From the NCBI GenBank assembly GCA_903850915.1, contig CAINMV010000029.1, positions 1-64,000 on the forward strand: 64,000 bases of DNA. The letters are read 5' to 3'. The stretch comes from an uncultured Bacteroidota bacterium (lineage in GTDB: Bacteria; Bacteroidota; Bacteroidia; UKL13-3). A program made the translations under genes and the position numbers. This document shows, piece after piece, positions 46,204-63,396 of the stretch (position 1 is the stretch's first letter; every line of letters begins with the position of its first letter). Below the pieces are notes generated by a model. The model saw nothing but the letters and a program-made list of their open reading frames with translations. It did no database searches and was not told the DNA's origin.

Positions 46204-46247
46204 CAAAACTAGGCACTTACCACAACTATTTTTATGACTAAAATCAT
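46204..46247 (-). promoter_or_regulatory. Crp/Fnr-type operator and -7 box for mbnP-mbnH
   Basis: The palindrome ATGACTAAAATCAT at 46234-46247 (centre 46240.5) is followed, on the minus strand, by TAGTTTTG at 46211-46204. The distance from operator centre to the box is 29.5 bp, identical to the other two sites in this window. The start codon at 46199 is only 4 bp past the -7 box, which suggests a leaderless or nearly leaderless transcript. Confidence 0.7.
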
Positions 46248-46372: not shown

Positions 46373-46966
46373 ATGTTTGTAGATTATGAAATTCTTATTG
46401 CTTGGGGATCTGTGGCGAAAAAATATAAAAAAGGAGAGTATATTTTCCATGAAGGTGATTTACCTAAATTCTTCTTTCAGGTAATTGAAGGCTCTGTAAA
46501 AATATTCAACACCAACAATGAAGGACGAGAATTTACGCAAGGTGCATTTAATGTAGGAGATAGTTTTGGCGAACCTTTACTATTTATTGACGAGCTATAT
46601 CCGTCGAATGCTATTACACTTGAAGACTCTGTAATAATAAAACTTTCGAAAGATAAGTTTTTCGCCATTTTAGATGAATACCCAAACCTGCAAAAAAAAC
46701 TAATCCATGTTTTCGCAGAGCGTATTTGGAATAAGTCAACAACAAGCAGAGATATAATTAATACAAATCCAGAATCTAGAATTATATCATTTTTAAAAGC
46801 TTATAAAAAGAAAATAAAAAAAGAAGGAGAAGATATAGAAATACCTTATACACGTCAACAAATAGCGAACTATACCGGACTTCGAGTTGAGACCGTTATA
46901 CGTGCTCTTGCAAAAATGAAAATTAAAAAATCGGTACAGATCGTAAAACGAAAATTAATTTATTAA
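46373..46966 (+). CDS. Crp/Fnr-family transcriptional regulator
   Basis: A 197-residue regulator. A cyclic-nucleotide-binding-like jelly roll covers about 12-120 (FHEGDLPKFFFQVIEGSVKI), followed by a dimer helix. The C-terminal winged HTH has TRQQIANYTGLRVETVIRAL. There is no N-terminal Cys cluster, so it is not an FNR-type oxygen sensor. It may sense NO through heme like DNR, or another signal. The recognition helix keeps E and R of VETxxR, compatible with TGA half-sites. The best target candidates are the ATGA-N6-TCAT operators at 46240.5, 61264.5 and 62004.5. It is co-transcribed with the gene 1 bp downstream. Confidence 0.9.
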   Translation: MFVDYEILIAWGSVAKKYKKGEYIFHEGDLPKFFFQVIEGSVKIFNTNNEGREFTQGAFNVGDSFGEPLLFIDELYPSNAITLEDSVIIKLSKDKFFAILDEYPNLQKKLIHVFAERIWNKSTTSRDIINTNPESRIISFLKAYKKKIKKEGEDIEIPYTRQQIANYTGLRVETVIRALAKMKIKKSVQIVKRKLIY

Positions 46967-52328: not shown

Positions 52329-53678
52329 TTAAGAATCTTGATGATAAATTACATTTCTTGAAATGGATGATTTAATAAGCACAAATGCAATTATTGAAAA
52401 TGAAATTAATAACCCTGCACCTGAAACAACAAAAACAGAAATGAAAGGATTCAAGGATTCCATCATTTGAGAATAACTTGATTGATTGACGCTCATTTGC
52501 CAAATGCCCTTTCGAATACCGGCTCCATTTAATGCAAGCCAAAAAAGCAATAAAAAGGACTGTAAAAACCAAAATGTAATGTTCAATGTTTTAATCTTAC
52601 GTGCATGCTTCTCAAGATTGAAATTTAAAAACTCAAAGCAAGCGGCTAACAAAATCATGCTATTGATTCCAATGGTTGTACCCATAGCATGAGCCACAGT
52701 TACATGTGTTCCATGCGTGAAGATGTTTATAGCAGGAATTGACATTAAAATGGCTTGTCCCATATTAAGAAAAACCCATATTTCAGATGCCATAAGAAAC
52801 CGATATGGAAAATGGTGGTAATTTTTTTGAATTGTAGTAATATTCTTCTTCCATTCATAAATAATACGAATGAAGAAAACCCATTCCGTCATACTCACCC
52901 AATAACCAATATATCGAATATATTTCTCCGTTGGCAAAGTATAAATATGATGCCCCCAGTTGAACATTAAATTAAAAAGACCGAGAAAGAACATAAAGAA
53001 AGCAAGCTTCGATCTACCCGTACTTTTTGAATTTTCAATACGGTCCATTAGAAAAAAAGCGGTGCCATATAGAATTTGATTCCATGACCCAACCAAAGAT
53101 CCATTTACCTTCCATTGTATCGTCATGTCGGTTACAAAATGAGATCTGAAAATTGGGAAAATCCACAAATAATTCTCTAAAAAAGTAAAAAGAAAAAAGA
53201 TGATACCGGTAAGCCACATCCAAACATACACGGGCCATTGCTTAAACCCTTTAACCATAGTAATGAAATTTGAGATAAACAAAATCCAAGCCATTACTAT
53301 TGGCAATGCCCATATTGGATTAAATTCCCAATACTCCCGACCTCCGAAATCTTTCAAAAAATAAGAGAAAAATATACCGATGATGGCAACCGTCCAAAGT
53401 ATAAACTGCCATTTAGAACGTTGATTGCTCGCAGAAGTTCCTGTATAAATTTGAAGTCCGCTATAAATACACCCGGTAGCCCCTAAAATAATCCAAAACA
53501 TTGCCGATGAAACATGCAAAGGGCGAAGCGATATAAACCCCAATTTATCTTTAAGAAACTCAGGATATACATACGATAAAGAAGCTAGGACACCGAATAC
53601 CAAACCAAATAGTAGCATTTTCAATGCAAACAGGAGAAAAAGACTTCCAAAGTTTAGTTTACTTAATTTCATGTTCAT
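52329..53678 (-). CDS. NorB-like heme-copper oxidase subunit with altered active-site ligands
   Basis: A 449-residue, about 12-helix protein of the NorB/cbb3 branch. RPLHVSSAMFW (His55), GREYWE, WGHH (His243-244), SMTEWVFF (Glu265) and THGTHVTVAHAMG align with Pseudomonas NorB. Several key positions differ. His207 and Glu211, the FeB ligands, become Asn192 and Val196 in VNGSLVGSWN; Glu215 becomes Asn200; and His349 of the low-spin heme becomes Met332. It is encoded directly after a NorC-type cytochrome (20-bp overlap), so NO reduction is the likely role. The canonical FeB site is not intact. It may belong to one of the non-canonical NOR families. Confidence 0.78.
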   Translation of the reverse strand: MNMKLSKLNFGSLFLLFALKMLLFGLVFGVLASLSYVYPEFLKDKLGFISLRPLHVSSAMFWIILGATGCIYSGLQIYTGTSASNQRSKWQFILWTVAIIGIFFSYFLKDFGGREYWEFNPIWALPIVMAWILFISNFITMVKGFKQWPVYVWMWLTGIIFFLFTFLENYLWIFPIFRSHFVTDMTIQWKVNGSLVGSWNQILYGTAFFLMDRIENSKSTGRSKLAFFMFFLGLFNLMFNWGHHIYTLPTEKYIRYIGYWVSMTEWVFFIRIIYEWKKNITTIQKNYHHFPYRFLMASEIWVFLNMGQAILMSIPAINIFTHGTHVTVAHAMGTTIGINSMILLAACFEFLNFNLEKHARKIKTLNITFWFLQSFLLLFWLALNGAGIRKGIWQMSVNQSSYSQMMESLNPFISVFVVSGAGLLISFSIIAFVLIKSSISRNVIYHQDS

Positions 53679-54081
53679 TAATCATTCCAAAGTTATCTTT
53701 TATAAAATTTCTAGGATCAGAGATACCACTCGCATCCGTAGATTTTAAAAACTGAATTAATACAGATAGCTCATAATCGGTTAAATCAAAAGCTGGCATT
53801 TGCTTAACTCCATATTTTACTAGCGGAGCTATCACTACTTCTCCCTTTTGAGGATTAGAAATAATATTGGTAAGATCGGGTCCAAGATAGCCGCCTAAGC
53901 CATATAATTGATGGCAACTTTGACAATTATGCTTTTGCCAAACCAATCTGCCAAAGGCAGCCTGACCTGGATCGAAGCCAACAGCTGCTTTCTCTTTAAA
54001 TGGGATAATATAAATGCTAAAAGAATAGATCAAAAATACCCCACACAACAGTATAAAAATAGTTGAAACCTTGATGTTCAT
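53659..54081 (-). CDS. norC: NorC-like membrane-anchored cytochrome c
   Basis: A 140-residue protein with one N-terminal membrane helix (about 8-26) and a periplasmic cytochrome c domain. The heme motif is CQSCH (about 54), followed by GLGGYLGPDLTNI and a Met ligand in KQMPAFDLTDYELSVLIQFL, the NorC pattern. It passes electrons to the NorB-like subunit. Its start overlaps the stop of the tyrosine phenol-lyase gene (ATGA), so it is translated from the same operon. Confidence 0.86.
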   Translation of the reverse strand: MNIKVSTIFILLCGVFLIYSFSIYIIPFKEKAAVGFDPGQAAFGRLVWQKHNCQSCHQLYGLGGYLGPDLTNIISNPQKGEVVIAPLVKYGVKQMPAFDLTDYELSVLIQFLKSTDASGISDPRNFIKDNFGMINEHEIK

Positions 54082-55463
54082 AGTCTTTCAAATTTCGCCT
54101 GAAAGAATCTTAAATATTTTGGTTCGTAAATCATCTTCAATCCCTTTATCGATTTCCTTCTTTCGAATACGGCAGCAGTTGATTCGGCAATCACATCCAT
54201 GTGGGCTTGTGTATAAACACGTCGAGGGATGGTAAAGCGCACCAACTCAAGTTTGGGATAATAATTATCACCATTAGCCTTACGTCCAGCCGAAACTATT
54301 CCACGTTCCATAGTGCGAACGCCAGAGTCGATGTAAATTTCAGCTGCCAAAGCTTGTGCTGGAAACTGGTCTTGTGTTAAATGAGGAAGAAAGGATTTGG
54401 CGTCAACAAAGATGCCATGCCCGCCAATTGGTTTCACAATTGGAACTCCATATTCAATCATGCGTTCTCCAAGATATTCAACTTGACCAACACGCGCACG
54501 TTGATGGTTGTCATCCAAACTTTCTTCAATACCAATTGCTATCGCCTCCATATCTCGTCCGGCCAATCCGCCATAGGTATGCAAACCTTCATATACCACA
54601 ACCATATTACGTGCTTCTTCGTAAACATCCCACTCATTGGTTGCCATAAATCCACCAATATTTACAAGAGCATCCTTCTTCGCACTCATGGTGGCTCCGT
54701 CCGTTAATGAGCAAATTTCCATTACAATTTGCGCAACTGTTTTTTTATCATATCCTTTTTCACGCTGTTGAATAAAATAAGCATTTTCAGCCACACGCGT
54801 CATATCATGAATAATACGAATGCCTTGTTTTTTAGTGTACGCTCTTAATTCTTTTAAGTTTGCCATACTAATTGGCTGACCTCCAGCCATATTTACATTC
54901 GTGGCAATACTTACATATGGAATTCGTTTAGCTCCATATTTCTTAACCACCTTCTCCAATTTCGCTAAATCAACATTCCCTTTAAATGGATGCAAATTCA
55001 ATGGATCGTGGGCTTCATCAATTATAATATCGGTAAACAATCCACCAGCAAGTTCTTGATGCAAACGGGTAGTTGTGAAATACATATTTCCTGGTACCAC
55101 ATCACCTTTTTTGATTAATATTTTGGATAAAATATTCTCAGCACCTCGACCTTGATGGGTTGGTATGATATATTTATAGCCATAATGCTTTTGTATGGCG
55201 GCTTCAAATTTATAATAACTCTTACTTCCAGCATAGGCTTCATCTCCTTGCATCAGACTACCCCATTGGGCATCACTCATGGCATTGGTACCACTATCGG
55301 TTAGAAGATCGATATACACATCCTCAGACTTTAATAAGAACGTATTGAAACCAGCCTCTTTAATAGCTTTAACACGTTGTTGTTTGGTTGTCATTTTTAA
55401 CAATTCAACCATTTTCATTTTGTAGGGCTCTGCCCATGAACGCTTGACAATTTTGGAACTCAT
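54078..55463 (-). CDS. tpl: Tyrosine phenol-lyase
   Basis: A 461-residue fold-type I PLP enzyme of the beta-eliminating lyase family. The PLP lysine is in MSAKKDALVNIGG. GNMYFTTTR, TMERGIVSAG and the C-terminal LRFFQAKFERL match tyrosine phenol-lyase. In the Citrobacter enzyme the Arg in MERG (Arg381) and the Phe in RFF (Phe448) define tyrosine specificity, and both are present. The reaction is tyrosine to phenol, pyruvate and ammonia. It follows the tryptophanase gene by 39 bp. Confidence 0.88.
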   Translation of the reverse strand: MSSKIVKRSWAEPYKMKMVELLKMTTKQQRVKAIKEAGFNTFLLKSEDVYIDLLTDSGTNAMSDAQWGSLMQGDEAYAGSKSYYKFEAAIQKHYGYKYIIPTHQGRGAENILSKILIKKGDVVPGNMYFTTTRLHQELAGGLFTDIIIDEAHDPLNLHPFKGNVDLAKLEKVVKKYGAKRIPYVSIATNVNMAGGQPISMANLKELRAYTKKQGIRIIHDMTRVAENAYFIQQREKGYDKKTVAQIVMEICSLTDGATMSAKKDALVNIGGFMATNEWDVYEEARNMVVVYEGLHTYGGLAGRDMEAIAIGIEESLDDNHQRARVGQVEYLGERMIEYGVPIVKPIGGHGIFVDAKSFLPHLTQDQFPAQALAAEIYIDSGVRTMERGIVSAGRKANGDNYYPKLELVRFTIPRRVYTQAHMDVIAESTAAVFERRKSIKGLKMIYEPKYLRFFQAKFERL

Positions 55464-55502
55464 ATATTTTAAATTTAAGATTATTGATTACGTTGAATAG
55501 AA

Positions 55503-56885
55503 TTATATTTTCTCGAAATGAGCGGTAAAATGCCTTAAAAATTGAGGTTCATATGTTATTTTATAACCTTTAGTTTGATTTCGCATTTCAAGAATATCAT
55601 CGAACACATCCAAAACAAAATCGATGTGACTTTGTGTGTATACCCTGCGCGGAATAGCCAAACGAACCAACTCATTCGGCGCTGGAATTAATTTTCCTGC
55701 TTCATCATACTTTCCAAACATTACACTTCCTACCTCTACACATCGAATGCCACCTTTAATATATAAATCACATACAAGAGCTTGTCCAGGATATTGATCC
55801 ACCGGAATGTTAGAATATAATTTTTTAGCATCAACATAAACCGCATGGCCTCCAATTGGCCAAACTACAGGTATTCCTTTAGCCTTTAAGTGTTCCCCAA
55901 GATAAGCCGTACTTCGAATTCTGTAATGCAAGTAATCCGCATCAAACACTTCTTTTAAGCCAATTGCTAAAGCCTCCATATCTCTACCTGCTAAACCACC
56001 ATAGGTAGTAAATCCTTCTGATATGATTAGTAGATTCTTGCACTTTACCGAAAGCACTTCATCCTTCATGGTTAGCAACCCACCGATATTAACCAGGCCA
56101 TCTTTTTTTGCACTCATTATAAAAGCATCACCCAACCTTAACATTTCTTTAGCGATTTCTTCGTAGGTGTAATTTTCAAAACCAGCTTCACGATGCTTAA
56201 TGAAATAGGCATTTTCGGCAATACGGCAACCATCAATAACGAGTAATAAATTATTTTCGTCACAAATTTTACGTAACTCCTTAACATTAGCCATGCTTAC
56301 TGGCTGCCCTCCAGCAGAGTTATTTGTAACTGTAATGATTACCGCTGCAATATTTTCTTTACCATATTGTTTAATTAATAAAGGTAGTTTTTCTAAATCC
56401 ATATCCCCTTTAAAAGGCAGATCCACCTCTGGGTCTTGGGCTTCAGCATAAATAATATCGATGGCGGTAGCACCAGTAAATTCGATGTTTGCACGGGTAG
56501 TATCAAAATGTGTGTTGCTAATAAAAACTTTGTCTTTTCCGCCTAAGATGCTATATAAAATCCGTTCGGCAGCTCGTCCTTGATGCGTTGGAAGGATATA
56601 TGGCATTCCCGTAAGATCCTTTACTACACGTTCTAAATGCTCCCAACTGCGAGCTCCTGCATAACTTTCATCGCCACTCATTATACCTGCCCATTGTTTA
56701 TCGCTCATCGCCCCTGTTCCACTATCTGTTAATAAATCAATAAAAACATCATCGGATCGAAGAAGAAAAGGGTTATAGCCAGCTTGCCTCAATGCACCTA
56801 AACGATAAGCTTCTGAGGTAGCTTTTAAAGGTTCAACCATCTTAATCTTAAATGGCTCTGTTAACGTACGTTCTTTAGTACTCAT
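55503..56885 (-). CDS. tnaA: Tryptophanase
   Basis: A 460-residue paralogue of its downstream neighbour. The PLP lysine lies in MSAKKDGLVNIGG. Specificity positions are tryptophanase-like: CVEVGS where tyrosine phenol-lyase has MERG, and LRHFTAHFEKI with His where that enzyme has Phe. SNTHFDTTR resembles the E. coli FFDTTQ loop. It converts tryptophan to indole, pyruvate and ammonia. Its start overlaps the nadB stop (ATGA). No tnaC-like leader or tnaB permease is seen. Confidence 0.88.
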   Translation of the reverse strand: MSTKERTLTEPFKIKMVEPLKATSEAYRLGALRQAGYNPFLLRSDDVFIDLLTDSGTGAMSDKQWAGIMSGDESYAGARSWEHLERVVKDLTGMPYILPTHQGRAAERILYSILGGKDKVFISNTHFDTTRANIEFTGATAIDIIYAEAQDPEVDLPFKGDMDLEKLPLLIKQYGKENIAAVIITVTNNSAGGQPVSMANVKELRKICDENNLLLVIDGCRIAENAYFIKHREAGFENYTYEEIAKEMLRLGDAFIMSAKKDGLVNIGGLLTMKDEVLSVKCKNLLIISEGFTTYGGLAGRDMEALAIGLKEVFDADYLHYRIRSTAYLGEHLKAKGIPVVWPIGGHAVYVDAKKLYSNIPVDQYPGQALVCDLYIKGGIRCVEVGSVMFGKYDEAGKLIPAPNELVRLAIPRRVYTQSHIDFVLDVFDDILEMRNQTKGYKITYEPQFLRHFTAHFEKI

Positions 56886-58423
56886 ATATATATTTCTTCT
56901 ATTTGTAATTTATTTAAATCCTTCATCTGGCTTTGTATATCTTCCAAGATAAGGATAGCTGTTTGTGCCATATTTCTTAGATTCAACAATTCTACAGAAT
57001 AGTGTTGGTCCGCTACTTCCTTCTCTGCCAATCGGCATATTTGGGAAAGAAATTGAATTGCCTCATTCTGATTCTCCTTTTCATTGGAAAAAAAATTGGC
57101 GCTCATTAATTTCTTTATTTTGTGATAAAGTGGTTGAATTTGTTTGTTGTTGCACTCAAAAACTTCTTTTTTCTGATAATCAATATTTTGTATTGTGCTT
57201 CTTTCTGTATTTATGACATCGGTAATTTTAATTGCAGCATTACGAGCATAAACCAAGGCTTCAAGTAATGAATTTGATGCCAATCGATTAGTGCCATGAA
57301 GCCCAGTGCATGATACTTCGCCTATAGCATACAATCCAGCAATATTGGTTTCGGCATTGGCATCAACTATTACACCACCACACTGATAATGCGCAGAAGG
57401 CACTATTGGTATTAATTGCTTTTTGAAATCATATCCATACAAAGCAAGGTGCTGGGTAATTTGCGGAAAATGATTTTCACATATCGATGGATCCAAGTGA
57501 CGTAAATCAAGATAAACAAAGTCAGTCTCGTCTTTCTCCATTTGCTTGTGAATGGCAGCACATACAATGTCGCGAGTTGCTAGTTCACCTCTTTTATCAA
57601 ATTGAAAAAGAAAACGACACCCTTCCTTATCTAAAATATGTGCGCCAAACCCTCTTATAGCTTCAGAAATCAAAAACGAAACTATACTTTCGTTAGCTTC
57701 ATATAAAGCAGTTGGATGAAACTGAACAAAACGCATGTTTTTAATTTTAGCCCCAGCACGTTTTGCAATTGCATAACCATCACCAGTTGCTACGGCTGGG
57801 TTTGTGGTATTGCGATAAACTTGCCCACAACCTCCAGAAGCTAATATTGTAAATGACGCTACTAGTGAAGAAATTGATTGGCTTGCTTGTTCAAAAAGAT
57901 AGGCTCCAGCACAATGACTGATTCCATTAACAGAAGTAATAATTAAGTCGACCACCGTATGATTGTCGTATATCTTTATTTTTTTACGACTTCGAACTTG
58001 TTCTAAAAGCACAGATTCAATTTCAAAGCCAGTTTTATCTTTATGATGAACAATTCTATTGGTAGAATGTCCACCCTCTAAACCAAGGTCAAAATCGTGG
58101 TGCTTATCTTGATCAAAAGTTACACCTAAAGCGACCAACTCACGAATACACTCGGGAGCTTGGCGCACCACCATCTCAACTACTTTTTCATCGCATAATC
58201 CACCACCACTTTTTATGGTGTCGTGAATATGATCTTCGTAGGAATCGTTAATTTTATTCATTACCGCTGCAATACCGCCCTGTGCATATCGAGTATTGCT
58301 ATCAGATGCATTGGCTTTGGTAAGTATAATAATATCTAATTCTGGGTTGAGATTGTTAAGCTTTACTGCGGCCGACAAACCAGCTATTCCAGAACCTATA
58401 ATTAATATATCGGTCGTCTTCAT
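56882..58423 (-). CDS. nadB: L-aspartate oxidase
   Basis: A 513-residue FAD enzyme. The dinucleotide motif IGSGIAGLSAAVKL is at residue 8, SDSNTRYAQGGIAAV at about 43, and HPTALYEAN, the arginine-containing active-site region and GEVSCTGLHGTNRLASNSL near 365-385. NadB oxidises aspartate to iminoaspartate and can use oxygen or fumarate as acceptor. It is encoded 3 bp after nadA, the enzyme that uses its unstable product. Confidence 0.95.
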   Translation of the reverse strand: MKTTDILIIGSGIAGLSAAVKLNNLNPELDIIILTKANASDSNTRYAQGGIAAVMNKINDSYEDHIHDTIKSGGGLCDEKVVEMVVRQAPECIRELVALGVTFDQDKHHDFDLGLEGGHSTNRIVHHKDKTGFEIESVLLEQVRSRKKIKIYDNHTVVDLIITSVNGISHCAGAYLFEQASQSISSLVASFTILASGGCGQVYRNTTNPAVATGDGYAIAKRAGAKIKNMRFVQFHPTALYEANESIVSFLISEAIRGFGAHILDKEGCRFLFQFDKRGELATRDIVCAAIHKQMEKDETDFVYLDLRHLDPSICENHFPQITQHLALYGYDFKKQLIPIVPSAHYQCGGVIVDANAETNIAGLYAIGEVSCTGLHGTNRLASNSLLEALVYARNAAIKITDVINTERSTIQNIDYQKKEVFECNNKQIQPLYHKIKKLMSANFFSNEKENQNEAIQFLSQICRLAEKEVADQHYSVELLNLRNMAQTAILILEDIQSQMKDLNKLQIEEIYI

Positions 58424-58426
58424 AAT

Positions 58427-59374
58427 TTATTTAGATAATTCAAACATATGCTCAAGTGGCACTAGTGCTTTGGAAATTAGTATAGCATCTAACGTTATTT
58501 CTGGTGATTCATTTAGCAGACATTCATACAACTTTTGCATCGTATTCATTTTCATGTACGGGCATTCACTACATGCACAGGTATTATTTTCCTTTGCGGG
58601 AACCGGGATAAGTATTTTATCTGGAACCTCCTTCATCATTTGATGTAATATTCCGGCTTCGGTAGCAATTAAAAACTCTTGGCATAAATCGGACTTTACA
58701 AAATCGAGCATTGCTGAGGTTGAGCCAATAAAATGAGCCAATCGTAGGATGTTGGTTTCAGACTCTGGATGGGCAACTACTTTAGCGTTGGGATGTTTTT
58801 TTTGCAAGGCCACCAACTTCTCAAACGAGAACGCCTCATGAACCATGCATGCACCATCCCACAATAACAAATTTCGACCAGTAACCTCTATTAGATACTT
58901 ACCAAGATTACGATCTGGTGAAAATAAAATAGGCTGATCTTTAGGGATAGATTCAATAATTTTTCGTGCATTGGAGGAAGTACAAATAATATCACTTAAA
59001 GCTTTAACCTCTGCAGAGCAATTTATATATGTAACCGCCAAATAACCTGGATGTTTCGCTCGAAAAACCTCAAAATCGGCAGCATTGCATGATTCGGATA
59101 AAGAACAACCCGCATTTAAATCAGGGAGAAGCACTTTCTTTGATGGGTTGACAATTTTGGCAGTTTCGGCCATAAAATGAACACCAGCAAATACAATAAT
59201 ATTAGCATCAGTTCCAGCAGCTTGTTTCGATAGCGCTAAGCTATCTCCAACAAAATCGGCAATCTCCTGAATTGCACCTACTTGATAATAATGTGCAAGA
59301 ATAACGGCATTTTTTTCTTTCTTCAAACGAAGAATCTCCTCCTTATAATCCACATTTTCATCGATTTTTGACAT
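58427..59374 (-). CDS. nadA: Quinolinate synthase
   Basis: A 315-residue enzyme that condenses iminoaspartate with dihydroxyacetone phosphate. The three Cys for its [4Fe-4S] cluster are recognisable in NAGCSLSESC, TYINCSAEVKA and CACSECPYMKM. The N-terminal VILAHYYQVGAIQEIADFVG and FAGVHFMAETAKI are family hallmarks. The cluster is sensitive to oxygen and NO, which may explain its place in an operon with NO-detoxifying genes. It lies 9 bp downstream of the barrel-protein gene. Confidence 0.95.
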   Translation of the reverse strand: MSKIDENVDYKEEILRLKKEKNAVILAHYYQVGAIQEIADFVGDSLALSKQAAGTDANIIVFAGVHFMAETAKIVNPSKKVLLPDLNAGCSLSESCNAADFEVFRAKHPGYLAVTYINCSAEVKALSDIICTSSNARKIIESIPKDQPILFSPDRNLGKYLIEVTGRNLLLWDGACMVHEAFSFEKLVALQKKHPNAKVVAHPESETNILRLAHFIGSTSAMLDFVKSDLCQEFLIATEAGILHQMMKEVPDKILIPVPAKENNTCACSECPYMKMNTMQKLYECLLNESPEITLDAILISKALVPLEHMFELSK

Positions 59375-59383
59375 AATTGACTT

Positions 59384-61198
59384 CTATCCTTTTGCCGGAA
59401 CTACAGGAATTATAAGTTTATTTAATGTTTCGCGAATGCTATCCAGCATCTGTAAGTTTTGCTTTTGGAATGCCACATCTACCACCTTAACTTTCTCAAA
59501 TAATGATTCGTAATATTGAATTCCGTCTATCAAGTTATTCTTAAAGGTTTGCAGATAGGTTGATTTTTTAGCCGATATTTCGTTCAAACTTTTATTGAAT
59601 TCTTCTTTTATAAAATCAACATAAAGTTCTAATTCATTAATAAAAAAAGATGGTCGGTTTAAATTATTCAATAAGTTCATTCTCCCATAAATATGATCCA
59701 CCATTTGTTTCAAAGAGAAAACTCCAGAAAAATAAGCTAGATTTGGACCAGGGCAAATGGTTACAGCCGATAATTGATGTGAAGGAGTAACATGATTTAT
59801 TAAAAGTGCTGGAGCTCCTAGGCCTTCGCACAAACAATCTTTTTCTTCTAACTTCGCTATCTCTACTTTTAACAATTGCTCATCTAAAATCTCATTTTGC
59901 AGTTGTTCGATTTTTAATTTCTGATACTGACGAGAGGCCGTGCAAATTGGCTTTTCAGTGAATTCTGTATTAGATGATAAATACTTCTTATAGCAAGGAC
60001 TTCCAGGTCGATTACGGTCGATTCTTTCTTTACGTTGTAATTCCGAGCTACTTGGTCGGAAATTATTAAACGGAACCCCTAGCGGTGATGCATTGCTCAG
60101 ATAATAGTCATCTTTCTTTGCAACTGCTAGTTTTGCTAAAGTTTCTTTATCAACATTAGTTGCTTCCGGAACCAACAAAAACGGACTTCCCCAGCCCGTA
60201 GCATCTAAATTAAAGTACTCTAACAGCAAATTATTTTCTATGGATGTCCCAATACCACCTTGCGCAGTAATCATAGTAACGGGCATGCTTTTAAAGGTTA
60301 TTTTATTCGACAACTTTAATGCTGCATTACATTCAGAAAGCAACTCTTGAAAAAGCTCATCACGTTTATCTTTAAACTCTTGAAGAATTGGGCCAAGTAA
60401 CATTCCATTCGAGATAAATGCATGTCCACCGCAATTTATTCCTGATTCAATTCGAAATTCAGAAATCCATAAACCTTTCTTAGCTAAATACTTGCCTTGT
60501 ATCAAGGCAGATCTATAATCACTTACCTTTAATACTATCTTCTTTTTTATATTACCATTTTCATCAGGAAAGAAATCATTGAATTTTTCGCAATAGGAAT
60601 ATAATCTTGGATTTAAACCAGCCGAAAAAATAATTTTAGATGACAAATCACTATTTGCATATCCACGGAAGGCAGCAAGGGCATCACAGAACTCTATTGG
60701 AAGAGCATTCCCATCTCCATCGTAATTTGTTTTATCCAATTTAGTCATGATGTTTACATCAATAGATCCGGGTATAATAAAATCACGAAGCTGCTCTTGA
60801 ATCAACAGCCTATCCTCGTTCGGTGCCATGGAAATTGAATTATATAATTGATGGGCATATGAAGATTCGGGAAGCATCTCAAAATATTTATTTATTTCTT
60901 GATTGGTTTCAAAGTCAGCGACCCTTAACTTAGCTATTTGCTGATTTACAACATTATTTAAAACATTTAAATAAGCAGTGATTCTATTGGCACGGCTATC
61001 ATAATCTTTTGCATGAATTGGCGAAAACACTATACCTTCATTTCTACAGATCACTTCTCTCATACTTTCCACCAATTCGTCCTCAATTATTGAAACAACC
61101 GATGAAATTCCATAACGACCTACCTTTACTGGAGTGTCAATGGTGAAGCCGAGGCCCATCACTGGTATATGGAAAGAATGTGGTGAAGATATATTCAT
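59384..61198 (-). CDS. Nitronate-monooxygenase-like FMN barrel protein with Cys-rich C-terminus
   Basis: A 604-residue protein of unknown function. FHIPVMGLGFTIDTPVKVG opens a TIM barrel. ESGINCGGHAF (compare nitronate monooxygenase EAGGH), TAQGGIGTS and WGSPFLLVPEAT are the flavin-site landmarks of the NMO/2-nitropropane dioxygenase superfamily. A C-terminal region adds Cys in SPCYKK, PICTAS, DCLCEG and TICPGP, perhaps an iron-sulfur site. I chose the ATG at 61198 over an in-frame GTG at 61255, because the promoter box (61228-61235) lies inside the GTG extension. It heads the eight-gene operon. Confidence 0.65.
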   Translation of the reverse strand: MNISSPHSFHIPVMGLGFTIDTPVKVGRYGISSVVSIIEDELVESMREVICRNEGIVFSPIHAKDYDSRANRITAYLNVLNNVVNQQIAKLRVADFETNQEINKYFEMLPESSYAHQLYNSISMAPNEDRLLIQEQLRDFIIPGSIDVNIMTKLDKTNYDGDGNALPIEFCDALAAFRGYANSDLSSKIIFSAGLNPRLYSYCEKFNDFFPDENGNIKKKIVLKVSDYRSALIQGKYLAKKGLWISEFRIESGINCGGHAFISNGMLLGPILQEFKDKRDELFQELLSECNAALKLSNKITFKSMPVTMITAQGGIGTSIENNLLLEYFNLDATGWGSPFLLVPEATNVDKETLAKLAVAKKDDYYLSNASPLGVPFNNFRPSSSELQRKERIDRNRPGSPCYKKYLSSNTEFTEKPICTASRQYQKLKIEQLQNEILDEQLLKVEIAKLEEKDCLCEGLGAPALLINHVTPSHQLSAVTICPGPNLAYFSGVFSLKQMVDHIYGRMNLLNNLNRPSFFINELELYVDFIKEEFNKSLNEISAKKSTYLQTFKNNLIDGIQYYESLFEKVKVVDVAFQKQNLQMLDSIRETLNKLIIPVVPAKG

Positions 61199-61227: not shown

Positions 61228-61271
61228 CAAATGTATCTTCATTGTTTTTTTTCACACATGATTAAAGTCAT
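61228..61271 (-). promoter_or_regulatory. Crp/Fnr-type operator and -7 box for the eight-gene operon
   Basis: The palindrome ATGATTAAAGTCAT (61258-61271, centre 61264.5) is followed on the minus strand by TACATTTG at 61235-61228, an exact TAnnTTTG box starting 29.5 bp from the centre. Transcription would begin near 61222, placing the operator near -41.5 and leaving a leader of about 25 nt before the ATG at 61198. Confidence 0.75.
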
Positions 61272-61325: not shown

Positions 61326-61883
61326 ATGAAAAACCTATTAAAATTATCCACCTTTTGTATCTTTTTGTTAATCGTATCATGTACTTCACAAGGCAGCACT
61401 GAATCATCGGAATCTGCAAATAACAAAGCCTCTGTAGCCGGACAATCTGCTGTGCAGGATAATGTATCAAATCCGAATATAGTTCAAGTAGCGTTAGAAA
61501 GTAAAGATCATACAACATTGGTAACTGCTGTAAAGACAGCTGAACTGGTAGATGTTTTAAGTAATGCGGGCCCGTTCACGGTATTCGCCCCAACTAACGA
61601 AGCGTTCGCTAAACTTCCAGCAGGAACTGTAGAAGGATTATTGAAAGCAGAGAAAAAAGAAACACTAACTGATATTTTACAATATCATGTTTCTGTAGGC
61701 GTTTATAAAGCAGAAAGTTTAAAAGATGGTCAAATACTTGGACAAGTAAATGGAGGCAATATAAAAGTTACCATTGTAGGTGGCAAGATCCTTATCAATG
61801 GAAAGGCTCATATAATTGCTTCAGTACCTGCATCAAATGGCATCATCCATATTATTGATGAAGTATTATTGCCTGCACAATAA
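61326..61883 (+). CDS. Fasciclin-domain lipoprotein
   Basis: A 185-residue protein starting at MKNLLKLST, with lipobox LIVSCTSQ (about Cys19) and a Ser/Asn-rich linker. One fasciclin (FAS1) domain (about 55-185) has TVFAPTNEAFAKLPAGTVE, ILQYHV and GIIHIIDEVLLP. FAS1 domains act in adhesion or binding. The role here is unknown, but it shares its operator with the nitrogen-oxide operon. An upstream TTG at 61299 overlaps the -7 box and is unlikely. A terminator follows at 61907. Confidence 0.85.
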   Translation: MKNLLKLSTFCIFLLIVSCTSQGSTESSESANNKASVAGQSAVQDNVSNPNIVQVALESKDHTTLVTAVKTAELVDVLSNAGPFTVFAPTNEAFAKLPAGTVEGLLKAEKKETLTDILQYHVSVGVYKAESLKDGQILGQVNGGNIKVTIVGGKILINGKAHIIASVPASNGIIHIIDEVLLPAQ

Positions 61884-61906
61884 TTAACAAATAAAATATA
61901 CGTTAT

Positions 61907-61933
61907 AAAAGGCCGTCTTAAGATGGCCTTTTT
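61907..61933 (+). terminator. Intrinsic terminator after the fasciclin gene
   Basis: The stem GGCCGTC/GATGGCC (one G-T pair) with a TTAA loop is flanked by AAAA and followed by a T-run. It lies 24 bp after the fasciclin stop and before the independent RIC promoter. Confidence 0.75.
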
Positions 61934-61997
61934 ATATAAAAACAAAATGAATTTCAAGTAATTAAATAAATATAAAGAAGTTTTAGAAGTATAACTT

Positions 61998-62041
61998 ATG
62001 ATTGAAGTCAGAAATAATAGTATAACAACACGTTAGTTTTG
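61998..62041 (+). promoter_or_regulatory. Crp/Fnr-type operator and -7 box for the RIC gene
   Basis: ATGATTGAAGTCAG at 61998-62011 (TGA-N6-TCA, centre 62004.5) precedes TAGTTTTG at 62034-62041, an exact TAnnTTTG box starting 29.5 bp from the centre. The predicted start near 62046 places the operator at about -41.5 and leaves about 24 nt before the ATG at 62070. Confidence 0.72.
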
Positions 62042-62069
62042 AAGCACAATAAATAATTAATTAAATATC

Positions 62070-63008
62070 ATGCAAAACTTTCTCGATGTAACATTACTTA
62101 ATCCTAAACTAAAACATCCCACCATATTTCAAGCATTTGATAAACTAGCCATTGGGGAAGAATTTATAATTCACAATGACCACGACCCTAAACCTTTGTA
62201 CTATGAGCTGATTGGTGAAAGAGGAAATGTATTCGAATGGAAATATATTGAGTCTGGACCATATTTTTGGAAAGTTAAAATATCAAAAAAATCCATTAAT
62301 CAAGCTGAACCTTCTATAGGAGATTTGGTAGCACGTGATTTCAGAAAAGCAGAAATACTAAAGAAACATAACATCGACTTTTGTTGTGGTGGAAGAAAGA
62401 CTATTTCGCAAGTGTGCGAAGAAAAAAACTTGAATTTAACTGCTATTCAAAATGAGTTAAATTTAATTCCAACAACTGCTATAAACAACCTAGATGATTT
62501 TGATAGTTTAAGTTTAGAATTACTTGTTGATTATATTGTAGATAATCATCACAATTATGTCAAGAATTCTATTCCAATAATAATAGAATACACAAAGAAA
62601 GTTTCACGAGTTCATGGCCAAAGGCATCCTGAAGTAGTTGTAATAGCAGATCTTTTCTTTAAAGTTACAATTGAATTACATGATCATATATTAAAGGAAG
62701 AAAACATTCTGTTTCCATATATAAAAGCGATATTTAATAGTAATGATAACAAGACTATAGCTTCTAAAATAAAAGCAATTACAGTAATGGAACAAGAGCA
62801 TGAAATGGTTGGAAATTTACTTAAAGAGATAAGGTCCCTATCCAACAACTACACTCCACCTGTCGATGCATGCACAACATTTAAATTATCATATTTAAAA
62901 TTAAAAGAATTTGAAGAAGACTTACATTCGCATATTCATCTTGAAAACAATATCTTATTTCCAAAAACCATTGCTTTAGAAATACAAATTAGTGCTTTGC
63001 AACAATAA
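62070..63008 (+). CDS. ric: DUF2249-RIC fusion: iron-sulfur cluster repair di-iron protein
   Basis: A 312-residue fusion. An N-terminal DUF2249 domain covers about 1-78 (LLNPKLKHPTIFQAFDKLAI and YYELIGERGNVFEWKYIESG). The ScdA/RIC N-terminal segment follows (about 86-130, VARDFRKAEILKKHNIDFCC). The C-terminal hemerythrin-like domain (about 148-305) supplies His/Glu ligands in VDYIVDNHHNYV, ELHDHILKEENILFPY, EQEHEMVG and HSHIHLENNILFP. RIC proteins (ScdA/YtfE) repair Fe-S clusters damaged by NO or oxidants. Its promoter carries the shared Crp/Fnr operator. Confidence 0.9.
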   Translation: MQNFLDVTLLNPKLKHPTIFQAFDKLAIGEEFIIHNDHDPKPLYYELIGERGNVFEWKYIESGPYFWKVKISKKSINQAEPSIGDLVARDFRKAEILKKHNIDFCCGGRKTISQVCEEKNLNLTAIQNELNLIPTTAINNLDDFDSLSLELLVDYIVDNHHNYVKNSIPIIIEYTKKVSRVHGQRHPEVVVIADLFFKVTIELHDHILKEENILFPYIKAIFNSNDNKTIASKIKAITVMEQEHEMVGNLLKEIRSLSNNYTPPVDACTTFKLSYLKLKEFEEDLHSHIHLENNILFPKTIALEIQISALQQ

Positions 63009-63024
63009 TTTAACTAAAGAATTA

Positions 63025-63396
63025 CTAACGAAAAATTTTAATTTGCATCACCGTTGCAATACTCTGAGCGCGTTGTTTAATTAAACTCGCTTTATCTCCT
63101 TCGAATAATTCATCTACCGAATCGTTAAAAAGTTGGTTCCACTGCTGAAAATGTTTCATTGTAAAAGGACTAATCGAATGAATTGCTGTATGTTGTAGCA
63201 TTGGGTTTCCATTATAGCTTCCAGAATAGAAAACCGCGTTCTCCCAAAAATCATACATTATAGGCAAATGTTGTGTCCAGTTTACTTTTACAACGTCGGT
63301 AAAAAAATATCCAATTGTTTCATCTGATTTTACTTTTTCATAAAATAAATCAACCAATCTTTCGATGTCAGTTCTATTCGCAATATCCTTTTTCAT
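63025..63396 (-). CDS. Group III truncated hemoglobin
   Basis: A 123-residue globin of the group III (P/ctb) type. The N-terminal DIERLVDLFYEKVKSDETIG, FFTDVV.VNWTQHLPIMYDFW and the FYSGSYNGNPM loop are characteristic, and a His for heme binding lies in LQHTAIHSIS. Such globins bind O2 and NO and usually protect against NO. It starts 1 bp after the end of the NosY-like gene and is probably co-transcribed with nos genes beyond the window. Confidence 0.88.
   Translation of the reverse strand: MKKDIANRTDIERLVDLFYEKVKSDETIGYFFTDVVKVNWTQHLPIMYDFWENAVFYSGSYNGNPMLQHTAIHSISPFTMKHFQQWNQLFNDSVDELFEGDKASLIKQRAQSIATVMQIKIFR

Follow-up and report, generated by a model that had tools for sequence, protein, structure and literature searches.

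A gene on the minus strand of the 64,000-nucleotide stretch analysed here (the window), from contig CAINMV010000029.1 of an uncultured Bacteroidota bacterium, encodes a 604-residue protein, P0001. The protein and its homologues are referred to as FAM, and genomes with or without it as FAM+ and FAM-. FAM is the first gene of a tight same-strand run, FAM-nadA-nadB-tna-tna-norC-norB-putA, in which consecutive genes overlap slightly or are separated by gaps of at most ~39 bp. The reading frame and the motifs quoted in a preliminary description of this DNA are real: CGGHAF, AQGGIGT and WGSPFLLVPEAT are motifs of a barrel, and SPCYKK (C402), PICTAS (C419), DCLCEG (C455 and C457) and TICPGP (C482) belong to the tail. 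Sequence searches identified no Pfam, NCBIfam or PHROGs family for FAM and no sequence relative in the Protein Data Bank (PDB); apolipoprotein-like matches of the C-terminal helices in these searches were rejected as coiled-coil noise. The Pfam model for nitronate monooxygenase (NMO), PF03060, did not match FAM even at an E-value of 10, and it did not rank with the leading families when 70 members were searched.

In a phylum sample of 296 Bacteroidota genomes the gene is present in 112, about one third, and in 58 of the 198 genomes of the window's class. The homologues are usually single copy and mostly 45–68% identical, and named hosts include Echinicola, Algoriphagus, Imperialibacter, Taibaiella and an Ignavibacteriales bin. 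A tblastn search against plasmids found no FAM. Three copies are unusual. A second, fragmented copy (G275:C1:4371176-4372865), in a genome that carries an intact one elsewhere, looks like a decaying duplicate. In Bacteroidetes bacterium OLB10, FAM is split into two overlapping reading frames by a frameshift or an assembly error (L050, 9989-11780). A contig placed in a Candidatus Omnitrophota bin carries a copy of ~50% identity, through transfer or a binning error (L043, 5704-7614).

Among solved structures, FAM most resembles the Helicobacter pylori enzyme FabX (HP0773; PDB accession numbers 7e1q and 9lt5). FabX is an NMO-superfamily enzyme with flavin mononucleotide (FMN), an atypical [4Fe-4S] cluster held by C300, C304, C308 and C320, and a catalytic H182; it converts decanoyl-acyl carrier protein (ACP), bound through K152, K159 and R164, to cis-3-decenoyl-ACP for unsaturated fatty acid (UFA) synthesis (PMC8626469). 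An AlphaFold2 model of FAM, built with an alignment of 70 FAM sequences of 48–68% identity (alignment A1), has a mean predicted local distance difference test score (pLDDT) of 92.5 and a predicted template modelling score (pTM) of 0.92. FabX is its best match in the PDB, with a Foldseek E-value of 1.7e-10, and VIA-align superposes the two with a Z score of 23.3 and a root-mean-square deviation of 3.1 Å over 332 of 363 residues, at 18% sequence identity. FabK, PfaD and nitronate monooxygenases follow, with Z scores of 21 and below, and the enoyl reductase domains of fatty acid synthases are also among the next matches.

The kinship is also detected at the profile level. Alignment A1 matched a combined FabX-type profile, composed of FabX and Bacteroidota relatives (L109-L138), with an hhalign probability of 96.4% and an E-value of 1.3e-9 over 285 columns, whereas a FabK/NMO control profile built likewise gave a probability of 0.5% and no alignment; the control, seeded with a provisional FabK sequence, came mostly from 29 loci. 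The strong match was obtained with the combined profile only: comparison of the FAM profile with the single FabX sequence (100% identical to PDB 9lt5), with three short FabX sequences or with the ~420-residue branch described below, taken alone, yielded probabilities of 3–25%. A search for FabX orthologues through PF03060 returned FabK/NMO proteins alone. In a tree of the barrels, FAM, FabX and the ~420-residue branch are grouped apart from FabK/NMO with a support of 100/100. FAM is very probably a flavin and iron-sulfur (Fe-S) enzyme of the FabX type, a widespread, previously unannotated variant of the FabX/UfaA-type enzymes.

The residue correspondence extends to the flavin site and to the face that binds ACP. 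FabX residues N99, E175, H182, G220, G221, S273, P274 and G341 are retained as identical, invariant FAM residues (N149, E251, H259, G314, G315, S371, P372 and G484), and C300 and C320 align with C402 and C419. Three histidines are invariant in alignment A1, H7, H10 and H259. The basic positions of the ACP patch are likewise conserved, with R229 and K241 present in all 70 sequences and position 236 occupied by Lys in 64 and Arg in six; just one further basic position is conserved in the equivalent helix. The FMN barrel of NMO type proposed earlier is supported by an NMO-superfamily fold match and mostly retained FMN contacts. The findings that the preliminary description named as contrary to its proposal, a model lacking an FMN site and non-conserved cysteines, were not seen.

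The same description listed five cysteines in motifs that looked conserved; all five are invariant in alignment A1, and the total is six with the addition of C256 in the barrel motif CGGHAF. The conserved Cys-rich tail, described as a possible iron-sulfur tail, appears from its sequence to be the counterpart of the FabX [4Fe-4S] subdomain. Two of four invariant tail cysteines align with FabX ligands and two are placed differently, and C402, C419, C455 and C457 would together hold a [4Fe-4S] cluster. The spacing, C-x16-C-x35-C-x-C, is unlike the C-x3-C-x3-C-x11-C of H. pylori FabX, and FAM is therefore classed as a variant of FabX and not as FabX. FAM is also longer (604 versus 363 residues), with a helical insert at about residues 40–140 and C-terminal helices at 518–594, and it differs from FabX in the two extra invariant cysteines at FMN-contact positions, C256 and C482.

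Two further relatives are of note. UfaA of Neisseria gonorrhoeae (NGO1024), as far as its published description goes, is ~36% identical to a Bacteroidales FabX and far closer to it than FAM is. The second is a third FabX-like branch of ~420 residues in other Bacteroidota families (L111-L138; f71 and f73), found in ~60 genomes, mostly of one family, and annotated by Pfam as NMO only, with NCBIfam FabK far below cut-off. Its barrel is ~36–44% identical to that of FabX. It shares with FAM the PNC...GKC...CLC cysteine layout, with a CxC pair in place of FabX C304/C308; unlike FAM, it lacks the C-terminal helices, has an extra CWTC and is absent from all FAM+ genomes of the sample. The 64 genomes with FabX-type matches at E<1e-20 show zero overlap with the 112 FAM+ genomes, which is not strong evidence because most of the 64 come from one family (f73).

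The preliminary description had suggested that the protein could act on nitro, nitroso or nitronate compounds. An oxidoreductase of this kind, detoxifying by-products of nitric oxide (NO), would fit the NMO-superfamily barrel with its catalytic-type His and the nor, Ric and globin-like genes close by in the window. It is nonetheless very unlikely: the FAM profile aligns with FabX-type enzymes and matches neither the NMO Pfam model nor the FabK/NMO profile, the ACP-type basic patch is conserved, most homologues lie outside nor operons, and the closest characterised enzyme acts on acyl-ACP. FabK and NMO share the FMN TIM-barrel superfamily and the catalytic His with FAM and have no Fe-S subdomain. 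The proposed substrates are probably wrong. The chance that FAM is a redox partner or an NO-stress electron-transfer protein with no small-molecule substrate of its own is slighter still; six invariant cysteines and the linkage with respiratory gene clusters agree with it, whereas the invariant catalytic His, the SPxG partner loop and the intact barrel suggest an enzyme.

A predicted FNR/CRP-type palindrome, ATGATTAAAGTCAT, lies 60–73 nt upstream of the FAM start, a feature not shared with FabX. Only two perfect copies occur in the window, at FAM and at a Crp/Fnr-family gene, whose product is a candidate regulator of the FAM site. Among the homologues, TGAY-N4-RTCA was found upstream of 26 of 70 (37%), compared with 50 of 704 other genes of the same loci (7%; p = 4e-11), and it also precedes ccoN (4/4), the cytochrome c gene near nosZ (6/9) and Ric (3/4). 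The looser motif TGA-N6-TCA precedes 42 of 77 homologues against 4.9 expected in shuffles. From these predicted sites, FAM looks to be under a low-oxygen switch, and its link to NO looks like co-regulation within a low-oxygen and denitrification gene set, not NO chemistry of its own.

Table 1 Features of the FAM locus in the window.
Feature	Positions	Strand	Remarks
FNR/CRP-type palindrome, second perfect copy	46234..46247		Upstream of Crp/Fnr gene
Crp/Fnr-family regulator	46373..46966	+	PF00027 and PF13545
NorB-like haem-copper oxidase-family subunit	52329..53678	-	PF00115 (COX1); NorB by size and pairing
NorC-like cytochrome c	53659..54081	-	PF13442; NorC by pairing with next gene
Tyrosine phenol-lyase	54078..55463	-	TIGR02618 over cut-off
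Tryptophanase-family lyase	55503..56885	-	NF009709 over cut-off
nadB-like, L-aspartate oxidase	56882..58423	-	PF00890, E 1.3e-94; name from operon with nadA
nadA, quinolinate synthase	58427..59374	-	PF02445, E 4e-116
FAM, FabX-like protein P0001, 604 aa	59384..61198	-	Reading frame and translation; AlphaFold2 model (pLDDT 92.5), best fold match FabX
C482 codon	59753..59755	-	Invariant; position of FabX F339 (FMN contact)
C455-L-C457 codons	59828..59836	-	Both Cys invariant; proposed replacement of FabX C304/C308, putative ligands; motif common to ~420-residue branch
C419 codon	59942..59944	-	Invariant; aligned with FabX [4Fe-4S] ligand C320; Cys precedes helix in both
C402 codon	59993..59995	-	Invariant; aligned with FabX [4Fe-4S] ligand C300
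H259 codon	60422..60424	-	Invariant; equivalent of catalytic FabX H182
C256 codon	60431..60433	-	Invariant; position of FabX S179 (FMN contact)
Residues 226–242, equivalent of FabX ACP-binding helix alpha7	60473..60523	-	R229, K236, K241 = FabX K152, K159, R164; 35-residue ungapped correspondence up to FabX H182 / FAM H259
FNR/CRP-type palindrome, perfect copy	61258..61271		Predicted site upstream of FAM
Palindrome, one mismatch	61998..62011		Upstream of Ric/ScdA-type gene at 62070

The norCB naming is putative and is based on the pairing of a COX1-family protein with a small cytochrome c and on the operon position. The putative nor operon (54078-59374) also holds nadA, nadB, the tryptophanase-family lyase and tyrosine phenol-lyase; NadAB may replace an O2-dependent route to NAD. 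On the other side of FAM, before the nos cluster, lie genes for a fasciclin-domain lipoprotein and a Ric/ScdA-type hemerythrin protein and a globin-sized reading frame (61332-63396), and nosZ of the source genome is at G000:C29:67252. A fasciclin gene is near FAM in seven of 78 loci, with an FNR-type site in all three testable cases. The statement that the gene leads an NO operon holds for the window run; the order FAM-nad-tna-nor is retained only in the close relatives L031 and L032, and because most genomes have FAM elsewhere, heading such an operon is not a property of the family.

Across the 78 loci, FAM neighbours include nos genes (nosZ in 10 loci), norCB, cbb3 oxidase, a FixI-type ATPase, Ric and nadAB; HemN, class II ribonucleotide reductase (NrdJ) and a U32 protein of the TrhP/UbiU type join them in some loci. 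Several of these neighbours stand in, independently of oxygen, for steps that otherwise use it. HemN was rejected as a general neighbour, having been seen in just three loci of the first set, and an Rrf2 gene is near FAM in eight loci. nosZ occurs in 56 of 112 FAM+ and 43 of 184 FAM- genomes (p = 4e-6, uncorrected for phylogeny), and lies within 15 kb of FAM in 17 cases among the 296 genomes.

The desaturases of FAM+ genomes were counted in samples of 40 FAM+ and 40 FAM- genomes. Of these, 26 FAM+ and nine FAM- genomes carry the O2-dependent acyl-ACP desaturase PF03405, uncorrected for phylogeny; within the window's class the counts are 21/21 FAM+ and 7/16 FAM- genomes. PF00487 desaturases are not associated with FAM (29/40 versus 23/40, p = 0.24). 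Seven of the 40 FAM+ genomes have neither family, so FAM may be their sole route to UFA. In a separate locus (L141, 6098-9167), plsC, an acyl-ACP desaturase and a genuine Bacteroidota FabX orthologue (43% identity) are adjacent, which suggests a paired oxic/anoxic UFA module.

The favoured explanation, with a probability of roughly 0.6, is that FAM is an oxygen-independent acyl-ACP dehydrogenase/isomerase that gives UFA under anoxia or denitrification. Its ACP patch and active site are assigned by residue correspondence, and the reaction, cluster and acceptor are inferred. With FMN placed in the barrel, a medium-chain acyl-ACP would dock on the basic helix, H259 would abstract the C2 proton and FMN would take the hydride. 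The resulting trans-2-enoyl-ACP would be isomerised to the cis-3 product and then elongated to UFA, while electrons would exit through the Fe-S cluster, and perhaps also the pocket cysteines C256 and C482, to an acceptor other than O2. FAM would be used when O2 is too low for the acyl-ACP desaturase of the cell, and such use would explain why genes for nor/nos, NadAB, HemN, class II ribonucleotide reductase and cbb3 are found next to it. In work cited in PMC11300592, a Neisseria FabX homologue is described as required to make unsaturated fatty acyl chains anaerobically, and its electron acceptor as not known.

Several observations weigh against this explanation. FabX uses O2 as its acceptor in vitro and is not known to have another (PMC8626469). 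In FAM, FabX Q240 is replaced by Gly, F339 and R160 are also replaced, and no Cys aligns with two of the four Fe-S ligands, C304 and C308. The FAM stem branch carries ~7 changes per site in the barrel tree, so the exact place of FAM in the tree is unsure, and given this branch and an identity to FabX of 15–18% the substrate may have changed. No recurrent fatty-acid gene stands beside FAM across the 78 loci, 49 of which have no detected FNR-type site. FabA is found in none of the 112 FAM+ genomes, and a FabA-like protein in only three of all 296; being near-absent with or without FAM, it is weak evidence that shows a need and not an association. The nosZ and PF03405 comparisons share the phylogenetic caveat given above.

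An alternative view is that FAM is a different acyl-thioester oxidoreductase, alike in fold and ACP contact but with its own reaction or product, such as enoyl reduction, dehydrogenation without isomerisation or a special low-oxygen lipid. The fold and the ACP patch are just as compatible with it, the branch from FabX is very long, and the next fold matches, FabK, PfaD and the fatty acid synthase domains, are enoyl reductases; the lack of a profile match to FabK/NMO speaks against it, and it is judged unlikely, although appreciably less so than the nitronate and redox-partner roles.

A more specific form of the dehydrogenase/isomerase reading is put forward tentatively, at somewhat less than even odds: FAM would be a separate, phylum-wide FabX-like branch with rewired Fe-S ligands and, at the flavin, two additional cysteines capable of redox chemistry, performing strictly O2-free acyl-ACP desaturation with an anaerobic acceptor, and would supply the missing O2-independent route by which facultative denitrifying Bacteroidota make unsaturated lipids. 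A gene found in about one third of the sampled Bacteroidota had no Pfam or NCBIfam family name, and its invariant cysteine set is a precise target for mutagenesis. If the reading is true, a FabX-type enzyme would be expected to run without O2, the anaerobic acceptor of the FabX/UfaA group would become directly testable, and FAM would explain how FabA-less bacteria that rely on O2-dependent desaturases keep unsaturated membranes during denitrification or anoxia.
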